37,036 nt of DNA from NCBI GenBank assembly GCA_017694595.1, contig JADIMT010000095.1, positions 1 to 37,036 on the forward strand. The letters run 5' to 3'. The notes under the pieces are model-generated. The model did no database searches. It worked only from the letters and a program-made list of their open reading frames with translations, and was not told the DNA's origin. Position numbers and translations under genes: made by a program. The stretch comes from Candidatus Ornithospirochaeta stercoripullorum. GTDB lineage: Bacteria; Spirochaetota; Spirochaetia; Sphaerochaetales; Sphaerochaetaceae. Each line of letters starts with the position of its first letter. Within the stretch, counting starts at the first letter, position 1. Below are positions 2,184 through 27,427 of this stretch, piece by piece.

Positions 2184-2477
2184 ATGATTAATCTTGATGA
2201 ATTCGGCATGATGCCGATAGAAATTCAGAAAGAAATTGCAAGGAAGGAAAAGGAACGGAGGAAGCAAAAGGGTATCACACAAGAGGAGATGGCACAGCGT
2301 GCAGGTCTTTCTCTTTCCTCCTTGAGGCGCTTTGAGCAGACGGGCGAGATTTCATTCGCATCCCTGGTGAGAATTGGAGCTGTCCTCGATGACGAGAAGG
2401 CATTTCTGAATCTCTTTGAACCACAAGAGTACAAGTCGATGAAGGAGTTGTTAGATGCGAAACGTAGAAAAGGCTGA
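2184..2477 (+). CDS. HipB-like antitoxin, Cro/CI-type HTH regulator
   Basis: This 97-residue protein has one XRE/Cro-CI helix-turn-helix in the middle (ITQEEMAQRAGLSLSSLRRFEQTG), preceded by a charged helix rich in Lys and Arg. The start at 2184 is preferred over a TTG at 2148 because the inverted-repeat operator and the -10 would otherwise fall inside the gene. There is no clear Shine-Dalgarno site. It overlaps hipA by 23 bp, so the two are translationally coupled. In the HipBA family the antitoxin binds and neutralises the HipA kinase and represses the operon. The AT-rich operator and flanks stand out from the surrounding genes, which may indicate a horizontally acquired module. Confidence 0.8.
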   Translation: MINLDEFGMMPIEIQKEIARKEKERRKQKGITQEEMAQRAGLSLSSLRRFEQTGEISFASLVRIGAVLDDEKAFLNLFEPQEYKSMKELLDAKRRKG

Positions 2478-3564
2478 TGTGATGGCATCCGGCAGGTTCG
2501 TCGGGACTATTGCTCTGACTGACCGCGGACTCACTGCGTTTGAATACTCACCTCAGTGGATTGAATCTGGCTTCTCAATCAGCCCATTTTCCCTCCCTTT
2601 GAAGCCTGGACTCTTCACAGCAACTAACAGCGCCTTTGAGTATATAGCTGGAGTTTTCGATGACTGCCTGCCAGATGGGTGGGGACGGCTTCTCACAGAT
2701 AGATACTTGGCAAGTCTCGGAATTGATCCTACACAGACAAGCATCATCACACGATTGTGCATGCTAGGTGATAACTCTTCGGGCCTTCTAGAGTTCATTC
2801 CTCGATTTGAGGAAAGCAAAGGAACAGACAAGCTGGATCTTGATGCTTCTTTCAGCACATCCAGGCTCATCCTGGCAGAAAAGGATATCTCCAAGTACGC
2901 CATGGACGACCTATTCCACAATGGTGGTTCATCAGGAGGTGCAAGGCCGAAAATCAATGCGCGTATTGACGGAGAACTCTGGATTGTAAAGTTTCCGACA
3001 TCCATGGACGGTGAAGATGCAGGTGTGAAGGAATACGATTGCAACCTGCGGGCTGTCGATGCCGGACTTGATACTGCCAGTTTCCGACTGATGGAATCAA
3101 AGCTGACAAAAGGATTCTTCGCCAGCAAACGCTTCGACAGGAAAAATGGGAAACGGATCCACATGATCAGCCTGTCAGGCCTACTGGAATCATCTCATAG
3201 ATCCCCCTCCCTGGATTACAGACATCTGTTCAAAGCGACACACTTCCTTACAAAAGATGAAAACCAGATGTATGAGGCGTTCAGGAGAGCGGTTTTCAAC
3301 GTGAAGATCGGCAATCAGGATGACCATGGAAAGAATTTCTCATTCCTGTACGATGAAGTATCCAGAAAATGGCATCTTTCCCCCGCCTATGACCTCACTA
3401 TCAGCACAACCTATTATGGAGAACACTCGACTTCAGTATGTGGAAAGGGGAAAAACATTACTGATGATGATTTGAGAAGGCTGGCAGACGAAGCCGGCCT
3501 GGACAGTAGAAAGAGAGAGGAGATTCTGAATGACGTCAGCACAGCATGTCGGACAATCAGCTGA
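2455..3564 (+). CDS. hipA: HipA-family serine/threonine kinase toxin
   Basis: This 369-residue protein carries the HipA fold. The N-terminal subdomain covers about 1-110. A Gly-rich loop, GGSSGGARPK, spans 157-166, and a nucleotide-binding Lys lies in WIVKFP near 179. The catalytic signature FNVKIGNQDDHGKN is at 281-294, with the catalytic Asp in DDH and a metal-binding Asn. LSPAYDL at 308-314 supplies the second metal-binding Asp. All key residues are present, so it should be active. Known HipA kinases phosphorylate aminoacyl-tRNA synthetases and arrest growth. It is shorter than E. coli HipA (440 residues). The start at 2455 has AAGGAG about 7 bases upstream, inside hipB. A stem AGCATGTC/GACATGCT brackets the stop codon but has no T-tract. 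Confidence 0.92.
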   Translation: MRNVEKADVMASGRFVGTIALTDRGLTAFEYSPQWIESGFSISPFSLPLKPGLFTATNSAFEYIAGVFDDCLPDGWGRLLTDRYLASLGIDPTQTSIITRLCMLGDNSSGLLEFIPRFEESKGTDKLDLDASFSTSRLILAEKDISKYAMDDLFHNGGSSGGARPKINARIDGELWIVKFPTSMDGEDAGVKEYDCNLRAVDAGLDTASFRLMESKLTKGFFASKRFDRKNGKRIHMISLSGLLESSHRSPSLDYRHLFKATHFLTKDENQMYEAFRRAVFNVKIGNQDDHGKNFSFLYDEVSRKWHLSPAYDLTISTTYYGEHSTSVCGKGKNITDDDLRRLADEAGLDSRKREEILNDVSTACRTIS

Positions 3565-13868: not shown

Positions 13869-14984
13869 TCAGAACTGCGTGAGATTCACAGGATCGAGAG
13901 ACACTCCGTTCTGCTCCACTGAAAAGACTACAGCAGGCTGTGAGAAATGAAGATTGCTCGTACCGATTGCGCCAATCACATCCCCTGCTTTCATATTCTG
14001 GCTCACTTTCGCAGAGACAGTCTCAAGAGCTGAATAGACTGTTGTATAGCCATCTTCATGCACAAGCTTGATAGAACGGCCAAACTCAGGATCAGAGAAG
14101 ATATCGATGACAGTGCCATCAGATGCAGCCACGACAGCGCTACCCGGCTCTGCTGCGATTGCAATACCTGCAAGAGGCTTTCCATCGATGAAATCACCGA
14201 ACCTTGCAATGACTTCACCGGAGGGAAGCGGAGATGTGAACATGTAGCTCTGAGCTTCCTCGATTGTACCAGGAGCTGGAACGAAGATTTCTTCGCCCAC
14301 AGTGCAAGCAGTGCTATCTTTCCTGTTGTAGAGAGCGACATCCTGAGCTGTAAGCTGCGGATTGCGGGCGCTGACGACATCGGAAAGCGTATCTCCCTCC
14401 TCCATTGTATAGAGTGTTCCATCTACAGGAGGAATGATAAGAACTGTGCCGCTTTCAAGGGCCGTACCTTTCAGCTTATTCACAGAGACAAGAGTAGTAG
14501 TTGAAAGCCCTGCCTTCTCCGCAATTGCCTGCAATGTATCGCCAGCTGTGACTTCATACTCGCTAAAGCCCATAGCTTCAAATCTCGCAGAGTAGTCTTC
14601 CTCTTGAACTGGAGCAACAGGAACAACCTCTGTTACATCAGCAGCCTCAGGCTCTGCAACGGCTGTTTCTACCACTGCTACAGCTTCCGCTTCAACTTCT
14701 TCATTCTCGACAACTTCAGATGCTACCTCCGCTTGAGGCTCTGCGCTCTGCCTCTCTGCTGGCTCAATAATCTCAGGCTCTGCAGGAGTCACAGAAACAG
14801 CTTCGATAGCTGGTCCCTCATTCTCTTCTTTATTGCTGTGCGGCGTGAAAAGCAGATATATGACAATAGCTATCAGCGTAAGCAAAACGCCAATTGCAGC
14901 GATAGCGGCGGTCATTCTTCCATTTCCTCTCCGCCGCTCTCTGTACCCCTCTGGTGGCATATCATCATAGCTATATCTGCTCAT
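13869..14984 (-). CDS. Membrane-anchored LysM protein with degenerate LytM (M23) domain
   Basis: This 371-residue protein has a basic cytoplasmic tail (1-23), one membrane anchor (24-46), and an acidic Glu/Ala/Val-rich periplasmic linker (55-128). Two LysM peptidoglycan-binding repeats follow (about 141-186 and 190-237), then a LytM/M23 fold (248-371). The metal ligands are lost. The HxGxD-type motif reads LAGIA (Leu271, Ala275), the HLH motif reads AVVFS (351-355), and the YxHL loop reads YSAL. It is therefore unlikely to be a peptidase and resembles the EnvC/NlpD class, whose inactive LytM domains activate amidases at the division septum. It is divergent from the ftsI-like gene with only 39 bp between starts. 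GAGGA about 12-16 bases upstream is its only ribosome binding site candidate. Confidence 0.88.
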   Translation of the reverse strand: MSRYSYDDMPPEGYRERRRGNGRMTAAIAAIGVLLTLIAIVIYLLFTPHSNKEENEGPAIEAVSVTPAEPEIIEPAERQSAEPQAEVASEVVENEEVEAEAVAVVETAVAEPEAADVTEVVPVAPVQEEDYSARFEAMGFSEYEVTAGDTLQAIAEKAGLSTTTLVSVNKLKGTALESGTVLIIPPVDGTLYTMEEGDTLSDVVSARNPQLTAQDVALYNRKDSTACTVGEEIFVPAPGTIEEAQSYMFTSPLPSGEVIARFGDFIDGKPLAGIAIAAEPGSAVVAASDGTVIDIFSDPEFGRSIKLVHEDGYTTVYSALETVSAKVSQNMKAGDVIGAIGTSNLHFSQPAVVFSVEQNGVSLDPVNLTQF

Positions 14985-15023: not shown

Positions 15024-15827
15024 ATGGCAGAAAATGGCAATAAGGGTGGAGGCAAACTGCTTTCTCTGATTCTCATCTTACCGCTTGCAGCCCTCCTCCT
15101 TTGTCTCGCACTAAGACTGACGCCTGCTTTTGAAAGCAAGCCTATTTACATAGATCCAGTTCCATCCCCGGTTCTTGTCAGGGGGAGCATCCTGGACAGA
15201 AACGGAGAGTATCTGGCTATACAGGCCCCAGATTATGGCTTTGCGATCCACATAAGCGATGCTTATCCATCGATAATCGCTTCATTCATCTCGGATTATA
15301 CAGATGAGAACGCAATCTCCATCGAAGAGAAGATAGAAAGAGGAGATAAATTCATCGTAATCACAACAATCCTTTCCACAGATGAGATAGCAGCGATACA
15401 GAAGCGATTATCATCAGCAGCGCTATCGGATGACATCTCCGTCGCAGTGATTGAGAGAAGGAAATATCCACAGCAAAGCGCATCATCGATCACAGGCTCT
15501 GTCGATAGCACATTCCACGGCATCAGCGGCATTGAGAAGCTGATGGACAGCACTCTCTCCGCAGTTCCTTCAATAGACAGCTATATCGAGCATGGCAACG
15601 ATGTCGTCCTCACTATAGATATCAACATGCAAGATAAGCTTGAAGAAAAGTACGGGAAAAGTGAAGCTGCGCTGCTCTCTCCCGATGGTGAAGTCCTTGC
15701 ATACACAGGTTCCGATGAAGCGATACTCGAATCGCTCATCGCAGAGAGCTCCAGCTCTTTCCCTTACACTGCAAAAGCTACAGCAGATGGATATTTCCTG
15801 TGGGAGGGTCAGGAGAGCGAGACCTGA
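15024..15827 (+). CDS. FtsI/PBP-like pedestal protein lacking the transpeptidase domain
   Basis: This 267-residue protein has a short cytoplasmic tail, one membrane segment (12-30), and then the N-terminal module of class B penicillin-binding proteins. RGSILDRNGEYLA (53-65) matches the family's RGxIxDRxGxxLA. ERRKYPQQSASSITGSVD (144-161) and ISGIEKLMDSTLSA (167-180) match the RRYYP...G and GIEGVEK segments. NDVVLTIDINMQDKLEE (192-208), followed by LLSPDGEVLAY, matches the start of the transpeptidase domain. The protein then ends, with no SxxK, SxN or KTG motif and no room for them, since flhF lies antisense downstream and the two overlap by 19 bp tail to tail. It probably keeps the part of FtsI that binds and activates FtsW. 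The transcript appears leaderless. Confidence 0.85.
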   Translation: MAENGNKGGGKLLSLILILPLAALLLCLALRLTPAFESKPIYIDPVPSPVLVRGSILDRNGEYLAIQAPDYGFAIHISDAYPSIIASFISDYTDENAISIEEKIERGDKFIVITTILSTDEIAAIQKRLSSAALSDDISVAVIERRKYPQQSASSITGSVDSTFHGISGIEKLMDSTLSAVPSIDSYIEHGNDVVLTIDINMQDKLEEKYGKSEAALLSPDGEVLAYTGSDEAILESLIAESSSSFPYTAKATADGYFLWEGQESET

Positions 15828-16900
15828 GTCCTGAAGCTTTGCATATCCAGTCCAAGTCCCTTCATATGCTCAAGCACGATAGCTCCGGATGCCTTTGCGA
15901 TATCCTCAGGCACTCTCTGTCCATCAGTGAAGAAAATGACAGGTATCGACAAGCCCGCTGAGAACGAGAGGACATTGCCTATCGTCTCTGTCTCATCAAG
16001 CTTGGTGACAGCAAGCGAGGATGGAGAGAAGCGCGAATACGCTGAATACTGCTGCATTATATCCTCTTCCTTCATGCTTGCATTGACTGTAAGGATGTAA
16101 TCAGTTCTATCGCTATCGAGGACAGAAAGCATACCAGCGAGCTTGAGATTCAGCTCCTTGTCTTTCGGGGATAGTCCCATCGTGTCGATAAGCACAATAT
16201 CCTTCCAGGAGAAGCGCTCTGCTGCTCTTATAAGCTCATCTTCTGCTCCAGCTGATAGCACTGGTATCGATAGAGCTTTTCCGAACGCTTCCATCTGATC
16301 AATGGCACCCGTTCTGTAAGTGTCGAGAGTGATGATGCCAACACTCTTCTCTTCCTTGCTGTAAAGATATGCAGCTTTCGCAAGCGTCGTCGTCTTGCCA
16401 GAACCTGTGGGACCGACAAAGACTACAAAGTGCTTTGGATGCACCTGCCTCTCATAATCTACAGTGACGCTCTCAAGAATCCTCCCGGAAAGAAGCATCG
16501 AGACATCACCAGAGCTGGGAAAATCCTTCAAAAGCTTCTCTTCAAGCTTCCCTGTGATATGATTGAGCGATAACAGCTCTTTCGCCTTCTCCAGATTCCC
16601 ATTCTCTCTGTAGATCTCTGTATCAAGGCGCTCTGAACGCGTGAGTGTGCTTGGATCCGGTGTTTTAGCTTCTGCAGCGAACTCGGAGATATCCTTCTCC
16701 CTCGACTTACCGTTCTCATCATCCTTTGTAGGCTCTGCAAGATAGCAGACTATCTCACAGCGCTGCTTTTTGCGCTTGAAGAGATGTCCGCCAGTCGTAT
16801 AATCCCTGCGGGAATGGATTCTTATTCCACTCCCGTAGAGTTCCGAAGCTTTTCTCACAGCCGCTTCATAGCTGTCGGCGGTGACTGTGTAATACTGCAT
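15809..16900 (-). CDS. flhF: FlhF-like SRP-family GTPase
   Basis: This 363-residue protein has an FlhF-type N-terminal segment (YYTVTADSYEAAVRKASELYG), a variable middle, and the SRP/FtsY-type NG domain. G1 is GPTGSGKT (163-170), DTYRTGA lies at 193-199, G3 reads LIDTMG (237-242, usually DTAG), and G4 is TKLDET. FlhF normally places the flagellum with FlhG. No flagellar gene is nearby. Instead it ends the xerC-hslV-hslU run, overlapping hslU as TGATG. If the host lacks flagella, as Sphaerochaeta is reported to, it must do something else, such as polar placement of envelope machinery. FtsY and Ffh are ruled out by the N-terminus and the lack of an M domain. Confidence 0.85.
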   Translation of the reverse strand: MQYYTVTADSYEAAVRKASELYGSGIRIHSRRDYTTGGHLFKRKKQRCEIVCYLAEPTKDDENGKSREKDISEFAAEAKTPDPSTLTRSERLDTEIYRENGNLEKAKELLSLNHITGKLEEKLLKDFPSSGDVSMLLSGRILESVTVDYERQVHPKHFVVFVGPTGSGKTTTLAKAAYLYSKEEKSVGIITLDTYRTGAIDQMEAFGKALSIPVLSAGAEDELIRAAERFSWKDIVLIDTMGLSPKDKELNLKLAGMLSVLDSDRTDYILTVNASMKEEDIMQQYSAYSRFSPSSLAVTKLDETETIGNVLSFSAGLSIPVIFFTDGQRVPEDIAKASGAIVLEHMKGLGLDMQSFRTQVSLS

Positions 16901-20449: not shown

Positions 20450-21370
20450 TCAGCTTTCCTCATCGCTGAGCGGAGAATACCTGTCGAAGAACGCCAACAG
20501 CGAAGAAGTATCGAGATGTGTATAGATCTGTGTCGTCCTCACATCACTGTGTCCAAGCATCTCCTGTACTGAGCGGATATCAGCACCATTCTCTATCATA
20601 TGTGAGGCGAATGAATGGCGCAGTGTGTGGATAGTCGCATCCAAGCCTAATTGCTGTACAGTCTCATGGAAACGTTTATGGGCAGCCTGCCTTGTAATCC
20701 TTCCACCTCGCCTGTTGAGAAACAAGGCAGTCTCCCTCGGATTCTTCAGCAGCTTCGGACGGACGACATCAAGATAGCGTTCCAGCGCCTCTTTCGCGCT
20801 CTGTCCGATGAAGACTATACGCTCCTTGTCGCGCTTTCCGACAACAGAGATGCTTCCCTCTTCTTCGCGATAGGAAGATACATCAAGCGCTACAGCTTCA
20901 GAGATTCTCATTCCTGATGAGTAAATCAGCTCGAAAAGCGTGTAATCACGGAAAGAGAGTGGATCATCGCTTGGAAATGAAGAGAGCAGCATGTTCACTT
21001 CCTCAGGCGATATGACACGCGGCAGATGTTCCCTCTCCTTAGGCTTCTCGATAAGCTGGGCTGGATTCACATCGTCGGCATCCGATGAGAAAATTATATA
21101 ACGATAGAAAGCGCGAAGAGATGAGAGCACTCTTCCCTCAGTTCTCTCTCCAGCTCCATCAGAGCGTCTCTTCACAAGATACTCCTCTACATCATCAACT
21201 CCTGTTGCTGTAATATCCTTCCCTTTCTCAGAGAGGAAAAGAAGATACCTCTCAGCTTCAGAAGAATAGACCTCTCTGGTTTTCTCAGAGAGGCGTCGCT
21301 GATAGATGATATAACGCGAAAACGCTGAGAGCATCTCGCGATCTGAGGGAGATAGCTCACTTATCATCAT
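20450..21370 (-). CDS. xerD: Xer-family tyrosine recombinase (XerD-type)
   Basis: This 306-residue protein has the same two-domain plan as the downstream Xer gene. Active residues are Arg in SGMRISEAV, Lys in GKRDKERIV, HTLRHSFASHM, GHSDVRTTQ and the Tyr in IYTH. It should be the second subunit of the dimer-resolution recombinase. The start overlaps the end of ftsZ by 14 bp, and GTG or ATG codons at 21373, 21370 and 21367 are all possible. The XerD label is by elimination, since the other copy sits with hslVU. Having both genes directly after ftsZ couples chromosome resolution to division genes. Confidence 0.9.
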   Translation of the reverse strand: MMISELSPSDREMLSAFSRYIIYQRRLSEKTREVYSSEAERYLLFLSEKGKDITATGVDDVEEYLVKRRSDGAGERTEGRVLSSLRAFYRYIIFSSDADDVNPAQLIEKPKEREHLPRVISPEEVNMLLSSFPSDDPLSFRDYTLFELIYSSGMRISEAVALDVSSYREEEGSISVVGKRDKERIVFIGQSAKEALERYLDVVRPKLLKNPRETALFLNRRGGRITRQAAHKRFHETVQQLGLDATIHTLRHSFASHMIENGADIRSVQEMLGHSDVRTTQIYTHLDTSSLLAFFDRYSPLSDEES

Positions 21371-22628
21371 CACTGCGGGAGTATCTCAGTACAGCTGGTA
21401 TAGAGTAATCGTTCTCACGTCCTCCACGCTTTCCAAGCTGCTGTTGCAGGTCCTGCCATCTGTTGACTGTAATCGTAGCAGGATCCGAAGGCTGACGCTG
21501 TGGCTGTACCTGCGGCTCTGGCTGTGGAGGATTCTGAATCTTTGGCTCAGGAGCTCTCTGAACAGGCGCTTCCGCAGCCATTCTCTCGCTCTCTTCAAGC
21601 TTGCGACGAAAGATATCAGCTTCAGGATCTGCTGCGACAGAGACATCGCGATGCTCAAAGCCTGTAGCAATAACAGTGACTTTGATCCTGTCACCAAGTG
21701 CCTGGTTATAGCTCTGCCCCGCAATGATGAGAGCATCTTCCGCACAGCTTTCAGTTATGACTTCAACTACATCCTGATACTCCTGCAGCGTGAGGTTATC
21801 TCCACCAGCAAGATTGACAAGGACTGACTTGGCTCCATCGATGGAAGCATTCTCAAGCAGAGGATTCGAGATAGCGAGCTTAGCAGCATCGACAGCTCTG
21901 TTGGCACCTTCTCCAAAGCCAAGCCCGATAAGCGCATCGCCCTTTCCCTTCATAATCGTCTTGACATCAGCAAAGTCGATGTTGATCTCTCCAGGCTCTG
22001 TGATGAGATCGGAGATGCCTTGCACAGCTTGCAAAAGCGCGCTGTCTGCAATGAGGAACGCTTGCTTGATCGGAGTGTTGGCTTCAACAACTTTCAGAAG
22101 ATGCTGATTAGGAATCAGGATAAGAGTATCAACCTGCTTTCTCAGCCTATCAATGCCCTGCTGCGCAAGAAGGAGCTTTTTCTTGCCTTCGAACGCAAAG
22201 GGAGTTGTCACGACAGCGACAGTAAGCGCACCGAGGGACTTGGAAATCTCTGCAACCACAGCTGCAGCGCCGGTTCCAGTTCCACCACCCATACCTGCAG
22301 TGATGAATACCATATCGGAATTCTCGAGCTCGGCTTTGATTTCCTCTTTCGATTCCAGAGCTGCCTTCTCGCCGACTTCAGGCACGCCTCCGGCTCCAAG
22401 ACCGCCAGTAAGCTCCTTGCCTATAGCAATTCTCGTCTGGGCATTGGAACGCTGCAAAGCTTGCACATCGGTGTTGAGAGCTACGAAGGATACCTTCTTC
22501 AGGCCCGATGCAATCATGCGGTTGACAGCATTACCTCCACCTCCACCGACTCCGACTACTTTGATGATAGTAGGTGCGGCTTCACCGCTGGCTGTGGCAT
22601 CCTCGATGTCGAAAATATCAAAATCCAT
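21357..22628 (-). CDS. ftsZ: Cell-division tubulin FtsZ
   Basis: This 423-residue protein has the N-terminal GGGGGNAVNRM, the tubulin signature GGGTGTGAA, and the T7 loop INIDFADVKTIM that completes the neighbour's GTPase site. A Pro/Gln-rich linker (about 340-395) leads to the C-terminal peptide DYSIPAVLRYSR, which binds FtsA and other partners. FtsZ forms the division ring. The gene lies 11 bp after ftsA. Confidence 0.98.
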   Translation of the reverse strand: MDFDIFDIEDATASGEAAPTIIKVVGVGGGGGNAVNRMIASGLKKVSFVALNTDVQALQRSNAQTRIAIGKELTGGLGAGGVPEVGEKAALESKEEIKAELENSDMVFITAGMGGGTGTGAAAVVAEISKSLGALTVAVVTTPFAFEGKKKLLLAQQGIDRLRKQVDTLILIPNQHLLKVVEANTPIKQAFLIADSALLQAVQGISDLITEPGEINIDFADVKTIMKGKGDALIGLGFGEGANRAVDAAKLAISNPLLENASIDGAKSVLVNLAGGDNLTLQEYQDVVEVITESCAEDALIIAGQSYNQALGDRIKVTVIATGFEHRDVSVAADPEADIFRRKLEESERMAAEAPVQRAPEPKIQNPPQPEPQVQPQRQPSDPATITVNRWQDLQQQLGKRGGRENDYSIPAVLRYSRSDDDK

Positions 22629-22639
22629 AGCAAACTCCC

Positions 22640-23872
22640 TTAGAACAGCTTCTCGAAAAGGCCTTTGACCTTTGCTCCGATTCCATTCTTTTCCTTACTG
22701 CTTCCTTGCATTGAGGAAGCTTCTTTATATTTCTTTGCTTCAAGCTTCAGAAGTCCAAGCACTGTGGAATAACGGGGATCGATATAAAGTCTATCGAGAC
22801 CGTTTATAGCCTCAGGGAAGCCAATGCGCGCAGGCATGCGGAAAATCTCAGCAGCCAGCTCTGTAGCCCCTGAAAGAAGAGCACCTCCACCGACAAGTAC
22901 AACGCCAGCTCCAAATGTTCCGCTCACGCCATTCTTCTCAAGTTCTGCGCTGAGCATGCTGAAGATCTCCGCCATTCTTGGCTCAATCAGCTTAGCAAGC
23001 TCCTTTCTCGGCAGTCTGATAGAAGGCTTTCCGCCAACAGCAGGTGTGACAATCATCTCATCGTCCCTGACGGATGGCGTATGGCAGCATCCATCAGCTA
23101 TCTTGATGGATTCAGCGGCAGAGCGCGGAAGCTGGAGCATGTATGCGATATCGCCAGTGACATTATCACCACCAAGAGGAATAGCGCCAGCATAGACAGG
23201 AGCGCCACCGACATAAGCAATTGCATTAGTCATGCCAGCTCCGATGTCAATCACAAGAGCCCCCATCTCCTTCTCATCGCCGCCTAGTACGACTTCGCTG
23301 TCTGAAAGCGTCTGCAATACTATGCGCTGCACCTGAAGTCCAGCCTTCTGGACGCATTTGCGCAGATTCTGGCAGATTGAAGAGGAACCTGTGACAAGAA
23401 GGACTCTGGTATCAAGCCTATGGCCAAGCATATCGATCGGATCCTTTATGCCTGCTCTCGAGTCAACCTGGAAGTCCTGAACAAGAGTATGGAGAATCTC
23501 TGTGTCCTGAGGCAGATCACGAGCACGTGCTACATCGATCGATCTTCTGATATCCTCCCTCTTTATCTCCTGGTCGCGGCTCTGGATGCCGACAACACCG
23601 CTTGACTGTATGCCCTTTATATGATCGCCGCCAATGCCGAGGATTACGGAACTGACTTCAGTACCAGCCTGAAGCTCAGCATCGCTCACTACGGAATTGA
23701 TGACTTTCAGAGTCTGTTCTATGTTGACTATCGTTCCTGACTTCATGCCTTCGCTTGGACGTTCAGAGATGCTTTCGATCATCAGCTGCCCATCGCGAGA
23801 GATGGTACCGATTACGCATCGCGTCCAGCTAGTTCCTATATCAAGTCCGACAAGAGTCTTGTCCTGCGCCAT
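22640..23872 (-). CDS. ftsA: Cell-division actin-like protein FtsA
   Basis: This 410-residue actin-fold protein has phosphate-1 VGLDIGTSWTRC, the SHS2 domain (about 85-165), phosphate-2 ALVIDIGAGMTNAI, and the adenosine motif VVLVGGGALLSG. The C-terminus ends in a basic amphipathic helix (KVKGLFEKLF) that ties FtsZ to the membrane. It lies 6 bp after ftsQ and 11 bp before ftsZ, in the standard order. Confidence 0.97.
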   Translation of the reverse strand: MAQDKTLVGLDIGTSWTRCVIGTISRDGQLMIESISERPSEGMKSGTIVNIEQTLKVINSVVSDAELQAGTEVSSVILGIGGDHIKGIQSSGVVGIQSRDQEIKREDIRRSIDVARARDLPQDTEILHTLVQDFQVDSRAGIKDPIDMLGHRLDTRVLLVTGSSSICQNLRKCVQKAGLQVQRIVLQTLSDSEVVLGGDEKEMGALVIDIGAGMTNAIAYVGGAPVYAGAIPLGGDNVTGDIAYMLQLPRSAAESIKIADGCCHTPSVRDDEMIVTPAVGGKPSIRLPRKELAKLIEPRMAEIFSMLSAELEKNGVSGTFGAGVVLVGGGALLSGATELAAEIFRMPARIGFPEAINGLDRLYIDPRYSTVLGLLKLEAKKYKEASSMQGSSKEKNGIGAKVKGLFEKLF

Positions 23873-26027: not shown

Positions 26028-26933
26028 TCAGTTCTCCGGCCCCTCCTGAATCTTCTCCACCACCCTGAGCTTCGCGCTCCTGGATGGTGGATTCTCCTCT
26101 TCCTCCTCCGCAGAAGGAATGATGGGCTTTTTCGTGAGTATTCTTATCCTCGCATTATCACGAGCAGCCTCATCCTTGAAAAACCATTTCACTTTCCTGT
26201 CCTCAAGTGAGTGGAACGTGATTACAGCGATCCTTCCGCCCTTTTTCAGTACTCTTATTGCATTCTCAAGGGCTGGAGTGATCCTGTCGAGCTCGCTGTT
26301 CACCTCTATCCGCAATGCCTGAAAGGTACGGGTTGCAGGATGAATCCTTCCGTATCTGTAATCCTTCGGCACTGCGCTCCGTATGATGGAGGCGAGCGTT
26401 TCCGAGCTCTCTATCGGTGCTTTCTCCCTCTCCTGAACGATAGCGTGCGCGATACGCCTCGAATACCTTTCCTCACCGTATCTGTAGATAACATCGGCAA
26501 GGTTCTCCTCGCTGTATCCATTGACGACATCCGCAGCGCTCATGCCTTGTCCCGGGTCAAGGCGCATGTCCAAGGGCTCGTCGCTCCGAAACGAAAAGCC
26601 CCTGTCGCTCTCCACGAAATGAAACATGGAGATCCCGAGATCAAAGAGGATAGCATCCGCCGAATTCGATGGCATCTCTTTCAAAGCGTCATCGAACCAG
26701 GCATTTACAGGGCGGAACCGGCCTCCGAAACCGCTTAACCGCTCTATTGCCTTCTTCTGTATCTCGCTATCCCTGTCAATGCCGGTAACGGTCAAAGAGG
26801 GATAAGCGTTGAGGAAGAGCGATGTGTGGCCGCCTTCTCCTGTCGTGCAATCAACAAGAAGAGTATCTCCCTCAGGGATAGGAAGATTCTCAAGGACTTC
26901 CCGATGCATTACAGGATAATGGACAATCTCCAT
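26028..26933 (-). CDS. rsmH: 16S rRNA m4C1402 methyltransferase RsmH (MraW)
   Basis: This 301-residue protein opens with HYPVMHREVLENL, as the family does, followed by the SAM-binding VDCTTGEGGHTSLFL (the usual motif has D-x-T-x-GxGGH), then GIDRD and ILFDLGISMFHF. It later has the family's conserved RTFQALRIEVNSEL and ITFHSLEDRKVK. It methylates C1402 of 16S rRNA. The ATG at 26933 overlaps the mraZ stop as TGATG; a GTG one codon upstream is less likely. Confidence 0.96.
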   Translation of the reverse strand: MEIVHYPVMHREVLENLPIPEGDTLLVDCTTGEGGHTSLFLNAYPSLTVTGIDRDSEIQKKAIERLSGFGGRFRPVNAWFDDALKEMPSNSADAILFDLGISMFHFVESDRGFSFRSDEPLDMRLDPGQGMSAADVVNGYSEENLADVIYRYGEERYSRRIAHAIVQEREKAPIESSETLASIIRSAVPKDYRYGRIHPATRTFQALRIEVNSELDRITPALENAIRVLKKGGRIAVITFHSLEDRKVKWFFKDEAARDNARIRILTKKPIIPSAEEEEENPPSRSAKLRVVEKIQEGPEN

Positions 26934-27385
26934 CACTCCTTCTCCTCAAATAATTCCTGAGCAAGGTCAGAAATGCTTTCTCCTTCATCGGCAGCCGCGA
27001 AGACTTCCGGATTCCAGAGTTCTACTGTATATCCCGCACCGACAAAGAGCGCTTCCGATTTATTCGGCAGCGAGTACTGTTCTCTGATCTGTGGCGGAAT
27101 ATTGATTCTTCCGGAACTGTCGATATCCACATAGATGGCAGGAGCTATGAGCTTTCTGATCAGGATGCGCTTTTTCTTGTCGAGCATAGCCATTGGGGAT
27201 GAGAGAATAGGCTCGGAAAAATCCTTTTCAAAATACTCTGGCTTCATGATCATCAGGTGGTTACCATCCAGTCCCGGAAGAACAACAACCTGCTCAGCGG
27301 CAAGCGCAGTTCTTAGTCTTGCTGGCAATGAAAGACGCCCTTTATCGTCGATCCTTGCATTATACATTCCTGTAAGAAGCTGCAT
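26933..27385 (-). CDS. mraZ: Transcriptional regulator MraZ
   Basis: This 150-residue protein has two AbrB-like halves, each with the family pattern: YNARIDDKGRLSLPARLR (8-25) and VDIDSSGRINIPPQIRE (about 86-102). MraZ binds repeats upstream of its own gene and controls the division cluster. The ATG at 27385 has a GGTGG site 5 bases upstream and gives the standard N-terminus MQLLTGMY. It is the first gene of the division operon, and phased boxes lie directly upstream. Confidence 0.96.
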   Translation of the reverse strand: MQLLTGMYNARIDDKGRLSLPARLRTALAAEQVVVLPGLDGNHLMIMKPEYFEKDFSEPILSSPMAMLDKKKRILIRKLIAPAIYVDIDSSGRINIPPQIREQYSLPNKSEALFVGAGYTVELWNPEVFAAADEGESISDLAQELFEEKE

Positions 27386-27392
27386 CTTTACC

Positions 27393-27427
27393 ACCCATTT
27401 CGTGGGAAATCATCCCACTTTATGCCA
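27393..27427 (-). promoter_or_regulatory. MraZ-box-like repeats
   Basis: On the minus strand TGGC (27427), TGGGA (27417) and TGGGT (27397) fall on a 10-bp phase, with a degenerate position at 27407. They lie between the -10 and the mraZ start. Known MraZ boxes are TGGG-type repeats every 10 bp, so this is the probable autoregulatory site. GTGGGA and TCCCAC also form an inverted repeat here. Confidence 0.6.

Follow-up and report, generated by a model that had tools for sequence, protein, structure and literature searches.

A Pedestal-Only FtsI and an FtsW Without Its Active Site May Persist as a Division Scaffold in Spirochaetes That Appear to Lack a Wall Pathway

Introduction

The stretch of DNA analyzed here (the window, 37,036 nucleotides of contig JADIMT010000095.1 from Candidatus Ornithospirochaeta stercoripullorum) encodes an FtsI that is shortened to its pedestal together with an FtsW that has been stripped of most of its active site, in a lineage where no wall pathway was found. 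Whether late divisome proteins constrict the cell by septal wall synthesis only, or mechanically too, is a matter of debate. The reading that we favor, with a probability of about 0.6, is that FtsW and FtsI have been retained here as a divisome scaffold free of catalysis, where formation of the complex is something we infer from sequence. The grounds for this reading are the orthology of the shortened protein, the loss of its transpeptidase (TP) core, the absence of a wall pathway from the assemblies, the decay of FtsW, purifying selection, the retention of the fts genes of the dcw cluster, and the occurrence of this state in at least two lineages.

Our sample comprised 139 genomes of the order, the window's included: 66 walled genomes in 14 genera and 73 wall-less genomes in eight (g1, which is the window's genus, g3, g4, g8, g14, g18, g21, and g22; g4, g8, g18, and g21 are called clade B below). 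Genera were assigned on whether MraY, MurA, or MurG was found, so the counts of these three markers are not independent of the grouping, while PF00905, the FtsW residues, and the truncation of FtsI are. Genomes with a completeness of 90% or more and a contamination of 5% or less are called high-quality, and 32 of the 73 wall-less genomes qualify. The wall-less genomes are fragmented assemblies, and their lack of peptidoglycan is read from genes.

A Truncated FtsI Gene

The gene starts at ATG 15024 and stops at 15825-15827, which gives a product of 267 residues. Its reading frame continues open upstream to TTG 14604, and we prefer the ATG because the divergent LysM/M23 gene begins ∼40 bases away from it and because it agrees with the starts in relatives. 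A preliminary description of this DNA had recognized an FtsI homologue that keeps the pedestal and has no transpeptidase domain, which our searches confirm. Residues 53-184 match PBP_dimer (PF03717, Pfam; E 3e-10, 41 bits, cut-off 24.4), a score at which the pedestal match is not due to chance, and the motifs RGSILDRNGEYLA, RRKYP, GIEKLMD, and LTIDINMQD lie where they had been placed. The N-terminal hydrophobic stretch aligns with the membrane helix of the walled proteins. After the pedestal come GNDVVLTID, one TP-domain strand (AALLSPDGEVLAYTG), and a brief tail; SxxK, SxN, and KTG are all missing, and a search for PF00905 across the window's own assembly gave no match. The tail includes the C-terminal remnant DGYFLWEG, which a weak alignment equates with the last TP strand.

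Truncated relatives, for which the preliminary description had advised a search, do exist. What they lack is the catalytic core, EPGSVFK through KTGTA, which would be flanked by the first TP strand on one side and by a C-terminal strand plus helix on the other; both edges of the domain are present, most clearly in g18 and g21, where the C-terminal strand and helix remain. As aligned, the TP domain of the relatives is not merely cut at its end; its internal core is missing. Across 56 columns of the TP core that are invariant in walled proteins, mean retention in 35 g1 proteins is 0.04, while R53, G54, A65, R147, E173, L180, and G194 (positions as in the G110 protein) are invariant in 35/35. In clade B, the conserved R of the RG motif is retained in only 0.41 of 17 proteins.

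A profile of 28 of the 35 g1 relic proteins then collected, when searched against the PDB, matched solved class B PBPs (4ovd at 8.2e-26; PBP2x, SpoVD, PBP2a), and alignment of the 28 truncated proteins with 8 walled FtsI by hhalign covered 237 columns at E 3.8e-39 and 23% identity. AlphaFold2, given the single sequence of the window's relic, returned a pLDDT of 39, with only helix 9-32 scoring better. With FtsI/PBP3 and other class B PBPs (4OVD, PBP2x, SpoVD) the relic shares the TM helix, the pedestal, LTxD, and the first TP strand; the full-length FtsI of walled relatives, at the same locus, has ∼555 residues against 267 in the relic, which is without SxxK, SxN, KTG, and the TP core. We note that the best partial match in NCBIfam is PBP2 (MrdA) and not FtsI, at 42 bits against a cut-off of 455. 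The protein is named FtsI here because its gene is the sole class B PBP gene found and the partner of the sole SEDS gene found.

Locus and Neighbors

Within the fetched stretches, several of which end at contig ends, g1 and the walled genera have a common gene order: secA (forward), lytM (reverse), ftsI (forward), and then, all in reverse, an flhF-like gene, hslU, hslV, and further on xerC, ftsZ, and ftsA. Exceptions are a secA match on the other strand in L053 (G048), four loci where lytM was not found by tblastn (L043, L044, L045, L060), and L088, whose synteny search gave no match at all. In clade B only the divergent LysM/M23-ftsI pair was detected, at 14 of 17 loci (g4, g8, g18, and 7/10 in g21); tblastn did not find lytM at the other three. 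The shared neighbors indicate that the relic is the same gene as the full-length gene of walled relatives, shortened. Synteny and profile alignment together identify it as the orthologue of their single full-length class B PBP, and its earlier description as an FtsI relic cut back to the pedestal is borne out. The Bacteroidales record L041 was considered as a relative and set aside; it carries an ordinary full-length FtsI, and the shared N-terminal MAENGNKG is read as chance.

The dcw cluster of the window (Table 1) runs mraZ-rsmH-ftsL-ftsW-ftsQ-ftsA-ftsZ with no mur gene, ftsQ and ftsL being assigned by position only. The FtsQ-position protein had no match in Pfam or NCBIfam. In 7/7 wall-less loci examined, the ftsQ and ftsL places hold ORFs with one hydrophobic stretch, and in walled genomes such as G124, G122, and G076 it is mraY that adjoins ftsW, where the window has the FtsL-position gene. 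The window also encodes a HipA-like kinase (PF07804 and PF13657) at 2455-3564 on the forward strand.

Table 1. Features of the window that bear on the division machinery
Feature	Position	Strand	Basis or remark
LysM + degenerate M23 (LytM) protein	13869..14984	-	divergent neighbor of ftsI in most relatives examined; LysM 49.5 bits
Pedestal-only FtsI orthologue, 267 aa	15024..15827	+	TM helix ∼9-32, PBP_dimer 53-184, LTID, first TP strand; catalytic core absent
SRP54-type GTPase resembling FlhF	15809-16900	-	adjoins ftsI both in g1 and in the walled relatives
FtsZ	21357..22628	-	TIGR00065 416 bits, over cut-off
FtsA	22640..23872	-	TIGR01174 400 bits, over cut-off
FtsQ-position protein, 237 aa	23879..24592	-	position; one N-terminal hydrophobic stretch
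FtsW-like pseudo-SEDS protein, 381 aa	24579..25724	-	ECL4 loop GGITGCGLGNGLFK and Asp kept; 5/6 scored active-site residues lost
FtsL-position protein, 88 aa	25748..26014	-	one hydrophobic stretch; directly upstream of ftsW
rsmH (mraW) and mraZ-like gene	26028..27394	-	head of the dcw cluster

The LysM and degenerate M23 gene persists in a genome seemingly without peptidoglycan. We considered its product as a third lost enzyme and rejected this, as the M23 catalytic residues are already missing in the aligned walled relatives; the protein thus fails to separate walled from wall-less genomes. For this comparison, the ORFs of L087, L088, and L091 are not this gene, and those of L043-L045, L060, and L061 were identified by position and weak similarity.

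The Wall Pathway Across the Order

PF00905 was found in none of the 73 wall-less genomes and in 59 of the 66 walled ones. The corresponding counts are 0 and 63 for MraY (E ≤ 0.001), 0 and 63 for MurA over its cut-off, and 0 and 64 for MurG at 70 bits or more, a limit chosen after the scores were seen; curated cut-offs were passed by only 21 (MurG) and 13 (MraY) of the 139 genomes. These per-group counts were tallied from the search listings and agree with the totals (PF00905 59, MraY 63, MurG 97 including 33 weak wall-less matches, MurA 63). Mur_ligase_M gives 0-2 matches in each wall-less genome; walled genomes mostly have 4-6, with a minimum of 1 in G003 and G104. Among the 32 high-quality wall-less genomes, PF00905 and MraY were found in 0/32. 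As a positive control, the PF00905 and PF00912 searches each matched in 10 of 14 control genomes; the PF00912 glycosyltransferase was found in 0/139 genomes of the order. YkuD was found in 2/139 (G006, G118), and the two YkuD-type lipoproteins, L136 (G006, walled) and L137 (G118, g18, wall-less), are clearly similar to each other.

In the window's own assembly, which is 83.5% complete in 113 contigs, MraY, MurG, MurA, and a YkuD L,D-transpeptidase were not found. The check that had been suggested, a search of the genome for a full PBP or an L,D-transpeptidase, came out negative on both counts in this assembly, PF00905 being absent as well. The single Mur_ligase_M match (1.4e-10) is presumably FolC. 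The weak MurG-profile matches in 33/73 wall-less genomes (at most 52.5 bits) and the MurA-profile matches in 59/73 (at most ∼86 bits), to go by their scores alone, probably represent other glycosyltransferases and AroA. One g21 genome, G132, carries a strong MurF beside Ddl (L138; gene names read from the sequence) in a genus otherwise without wall genes found. This MurF outscores the best Mur ligase of every other genome and is probably contamination, for which 4% is listed for G132. Taken over the sample, the wall pathway seems to be missing altogether from eight genera.

As a general statement on the relatives, a lack of PBPs, which has been claimed for Sphaerochaeta and which the preliminary description had mentioned, does not hold. 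One full class B PBP is present in 59 of the 66 genomes of the Mur-pathway group, with SVFK, SCN, and KTGTA in those inspected (one has STN for SCN). The seven genomes of walled genera that are free of PF00905 are G003, G004, G006, G025, G103, G107, and G121; G121, counted as walled, has MurA and Mur ligases and no MraY, MurG, PBP, or FtsW match. Each of the 59 PF00905-bearing genomes has exactly one match, which with no PF00912 anywhere amounts to a wall machine of one polymerase and one transpeptidase. In L093 (G081, g13) the ftsI gene spreads over two frames, a pedestal of 214 residues and a transpeptidase part of 430, by sequencing error or as a real split. Published studies give one TPase for S. 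coccoides (PMC4423922), report murA-G and mraY in Sphaerochaeta and Bullifex with peptidoglycan found in Bullifex porci and PBP1a/2/C absent (PMC7738495), and describe an ancestral spirochaete with mur genes (PMC12236494).

FtsW as a Pseudo-Enzyme

The window's FtsW matches PF01098 over its cut-off (1.1e-28, 101 bits) and stays far under the cut-off of the NCBIfam ftsW model (116 bits against 337.5). Against PF01098, wall-less FtsW proteins score at most 154 bits, compared with at least ∼252 bits for complete walled ones. We aligned 16 walled and 41 wall-less proteins, taken from the 64 walled and 68 wall-less genomes with a match. All six active-site residues are present in 16/16 walled proteins. 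In the 41 wall-less proteins R117 is retained in 0, W118 in 2, E131 in 0, K134 in 0, R226 in 0, and D277 in 9, which leaves none of the six in 30/41 and one in 11/41 (L153, read as a fragment of 234 residues, was scored as lacking the positions it does not cover). In the window's protein D277 is the only one left, the R, W, E, K, and R being gone.

Positions of ECL4, by contrast, have been kept in these same 41 proteins (G254 in 40, G258 in 41, G260 in 41, G262 in 38, G264 in 37, K267 in 36). In the N-terminal part of this loop, walled-invariant columns are retained at 0.83 versus 0.09 in ECL2, 0.14 in ECL3, and 0.17 in the active-site part of ECL4; columns 279-340, outside the loops, are also retained (0.74). 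A Tyr replaces the walled Gln of the FFS motif in 24/41 wall-less proteins, so not every change in FtsW is plain decay. In E. coli FtsW, whose residue numbers we matched to those of the relatives by motif, PMC8765783 gives D297 and W138 as intolerant of alanine and cites K153A as dominant-negative, whereas E150A still complemented. The P. aeruginosa loop M257-I263 contacts FtsL and the FtsI linker, according to PMC7614612, and by our count it aligns with the ECL4 loop retained in wall-less FtsW. Loss of the active-site residues together with retention of this loop points to an FtsW whose catalysis is gone and whose partner surface stays. Retention of the ECL4 glycines may also reflect SEDS folding and not FtsI binding. 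A search for FtsW gave no match in 5 of the 73 wall-less genomes (G018, G131, G136, G137, G138), so that loss of FtsW alongside a retained pedestal protein may occur.

Two walled genomes of g2, G004 and G006 (both high-quality; L282, L283), have MraY, MurG, MurA, and 5-6 Mur-ligase matches, and their FtsW proteins are intact at all six active-site residues. Their sole FtsI has a dead TP domain, with MIIE or AIAE in the place of SVFK and the SCN and KTGTA stretches deleted. They are candidates for peptidoglycan that is polymerized and not D,D-cross-linked, and they appear as an INTERMEDIATE, which suggests that cross-linking can go before the polymer. Polymerization without D,D-cross-linking had been proposed for the window's genome, where it fails; it does fit these two, with their dead TP domain, intact FtsW, and Mur pathway.

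Retention and Selection

A search with the relic profile found a pedestal homologue in 130/139 genomes and in 75/75 high-quality ones, the matches in walled genomes being the full-length gene. Among wall-less genomes the count is 68/73, and 32/32 for those of high quality; matches are weak in g3, g14, and g22 (E 1e-10 to 1e-16). The nine genomes where this search found none (G003, G025, G030, G037, G044, G072, G086, G103, G121) are all <90% complete. The pedestal matches listed have no internal stops. Omega for the relic is 0.07-0.17 in the 20 of 26 pairs with finite dS, the other six being saturated, and 0.06-0.31 for its tail where finite. For FtsW it is 0.02-0.06 in 5 of 9 pairs, the other four again being saturated. 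The pairs are >60% identical, and those of the relic share genomes and are not independent. These values identify the relic as a gene under purifying selection and not a pseudogene. Within g1, the relic and FtsW diverge far more than FtsZ and FtsA.

At Least Two Losses of the Wall Required by the Trees

In an unrooted FtsZ+FtsA tree of 61 rows the wall-less genera fall in two clades, with g1 near walled g2, and with g21, g8, g14, and g18 near walled g7 and g10. A single wall-less clade is rejected by FtsZ+FtsA (p-AU 7.2e-9) in a test that left out the long rows G017 and G019; the long branches G025 and G028 meet in this tree. An unrooted RpoB tree of 50 rows requires three changes, at least two of them forced by well-supported branches, and rejects the single clade only at p 0.03 in a test that left out G116; here the long g1 rows G031 and G060 are not firmly grouped with g1. 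As for g22, its union with g1 is not rejected (p 0.41) and its union with clade B is (p 0.006). The topology tests followed sight of the first tree, with the groups defined by gene content. Finding at least two wall-less clades on these trees means that separate losses ended in the same state; as the trees stand, the wall was lost at least twice.

We also observed that the RpoB frames of g3, g4, g8, g14, and g18 (L262-L268, L279) are 1305-1336 residues long versus ∼1170-1240 in most others, with G031 (1295) and G060 (1308) as exceptions; the profile match in these five genera is interrupted close to position 692, hinting at an insertion common to them.

A Proposed Scaffold Without Catalysis and Its Rivals

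In the scaffold reading, the lineage's only class B PBP gave up its transpeptidase core along with the lipid II pathway. FtsW, its partner, lost its active site and kept the surface that meets FtsI and FtsL in a solved divisome. The pedestal protein and the pseudo-FtsW would still form an FtsWI(QL) complex in the membrane. This complex would join the FtsZ/FtsA ring to the periplasm through the FtsQ- and FtsL-position proteins, with localization and force transmission as its putative roles, and would perhaps reach the outer membrane through the LysM/LytM neighbor. The outcome would be constriction of the envelope without septal peptidoglycan. We lean slightly toward a further proposal, that the FtsW-FtsI-FtsQ-FtsL complex has a conserved division function without polymerization or cross-linking, that at least two lineages dropped both active sites independently and kept the complex, and that those walled relatives whose TP domain is dead represent an intermediate, in which cross-linking was lost first.

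The preliminary description had instead taken the pedestal to be still switching septal glycan polymerization by FtsW in a cell where cross-linking had been lost or passed to other enzymes. Pedestal and ECL4 contact loop are indeed retained, and such a state exists in the family in G004 and G006, but the window's genome offers no MraY, MurG, or MurA, one weak Mur-ligase match, neither PF00912 nor YkuD, and an FtsW in which the Asp is the sole survivor of the six active-site residues; we regard this switch as very improbable here. That the wall genes are merely missing from incomplete or misbinned genomes, as the 83.5% completeness and 113 contigs of the window's assembly might invite one to think, is hardly credible: PF00905 or MraY is found in 0/32 high-quality wall-less genomes, ftsL and ftsW stand without mraY inside one contig in the window's dcw cluster, and a gap in the assembly cannot account for the decayed active site of FtsW.

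Both proteins are reduced, both diverge more in g1 than FtsZ and FtsA do, and FtsW was not found in 5/73 wall-less genomes, all of which would be expected of functionless remnants on their way out. We consider this improbable, however, given omega values of 0.07-0.17 (FtsI) and 0.02-0.06 (FtsW) where dS is finite, listed matches free of stops, a pedestal homologue in 32/32 high-quality wall-less genomes, and an end state that two or more lineages have reached. Unlikely, and yet deserving some weight, is a single job outside the divisome, for instance in envelope stability by the pedestal with its LysM/LytM neighbor, with FtsW as a bystander. The lytM-ftsI pair stays together at 14/17 clade B loci where other synteny is undetected, and g22 retains the pedestal with FtsW not found there; on the other hand, a bystander would hardly be present in 68/73 wall-less genomes, keep its ECL4 loop in the 41 proteins examined, and show so low an omega.

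Relation to Known Systems

The FtsWIQBL divisome core (8BH1; PMC7614612) has candidate counterparts of W, I, Q, and L in conserved places in the window, whose version is expected to be without catalysis and has no substrate pathway. From the SEDS glycosyltransferase FtsW the window's protein has the PF01098 match and the ECL4 loop; it differs in the loss of R, W, E, K, and R, and 32/41 wall-less proteins have lost the Asp as well. Wall-less Mollicutes, as described in PMC8475190, likewise lost the wall and kept ftsZ and mraZ/mraW, whereas the window also keeps ftsA, ftsW, the ftsI relic, and the genes at the ftsQ and ftsL positions. Bullifex porci and Sphaerochaeta probably belong to the window's family; PMC7738495 reports rodA, mreC, and PBP1a/2/C as absent there and, unlike the window, murA-G, mraY, and murJ as present, with peptidoglycan detected in B. 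porci. A search of the open-license PMC literature found no paper on wall-less members of the family, a pedestal-only FtsI, or a pseudo-FtsW.

These results correct the picture of the family, as most walled members searched have one full class B PBP and PF00912 is found in 0/139 genomes. The list of FtsI and FtsW residues that are kept without catalysis predicts a non-enzymatic interface between the two proteins. A lineage without a wall and without both catalytic centers that has kept the proteins themselves would mean that the two roles, wall synthesis and mechanical constriction, have been separated in nature and, by the trees, more than once.
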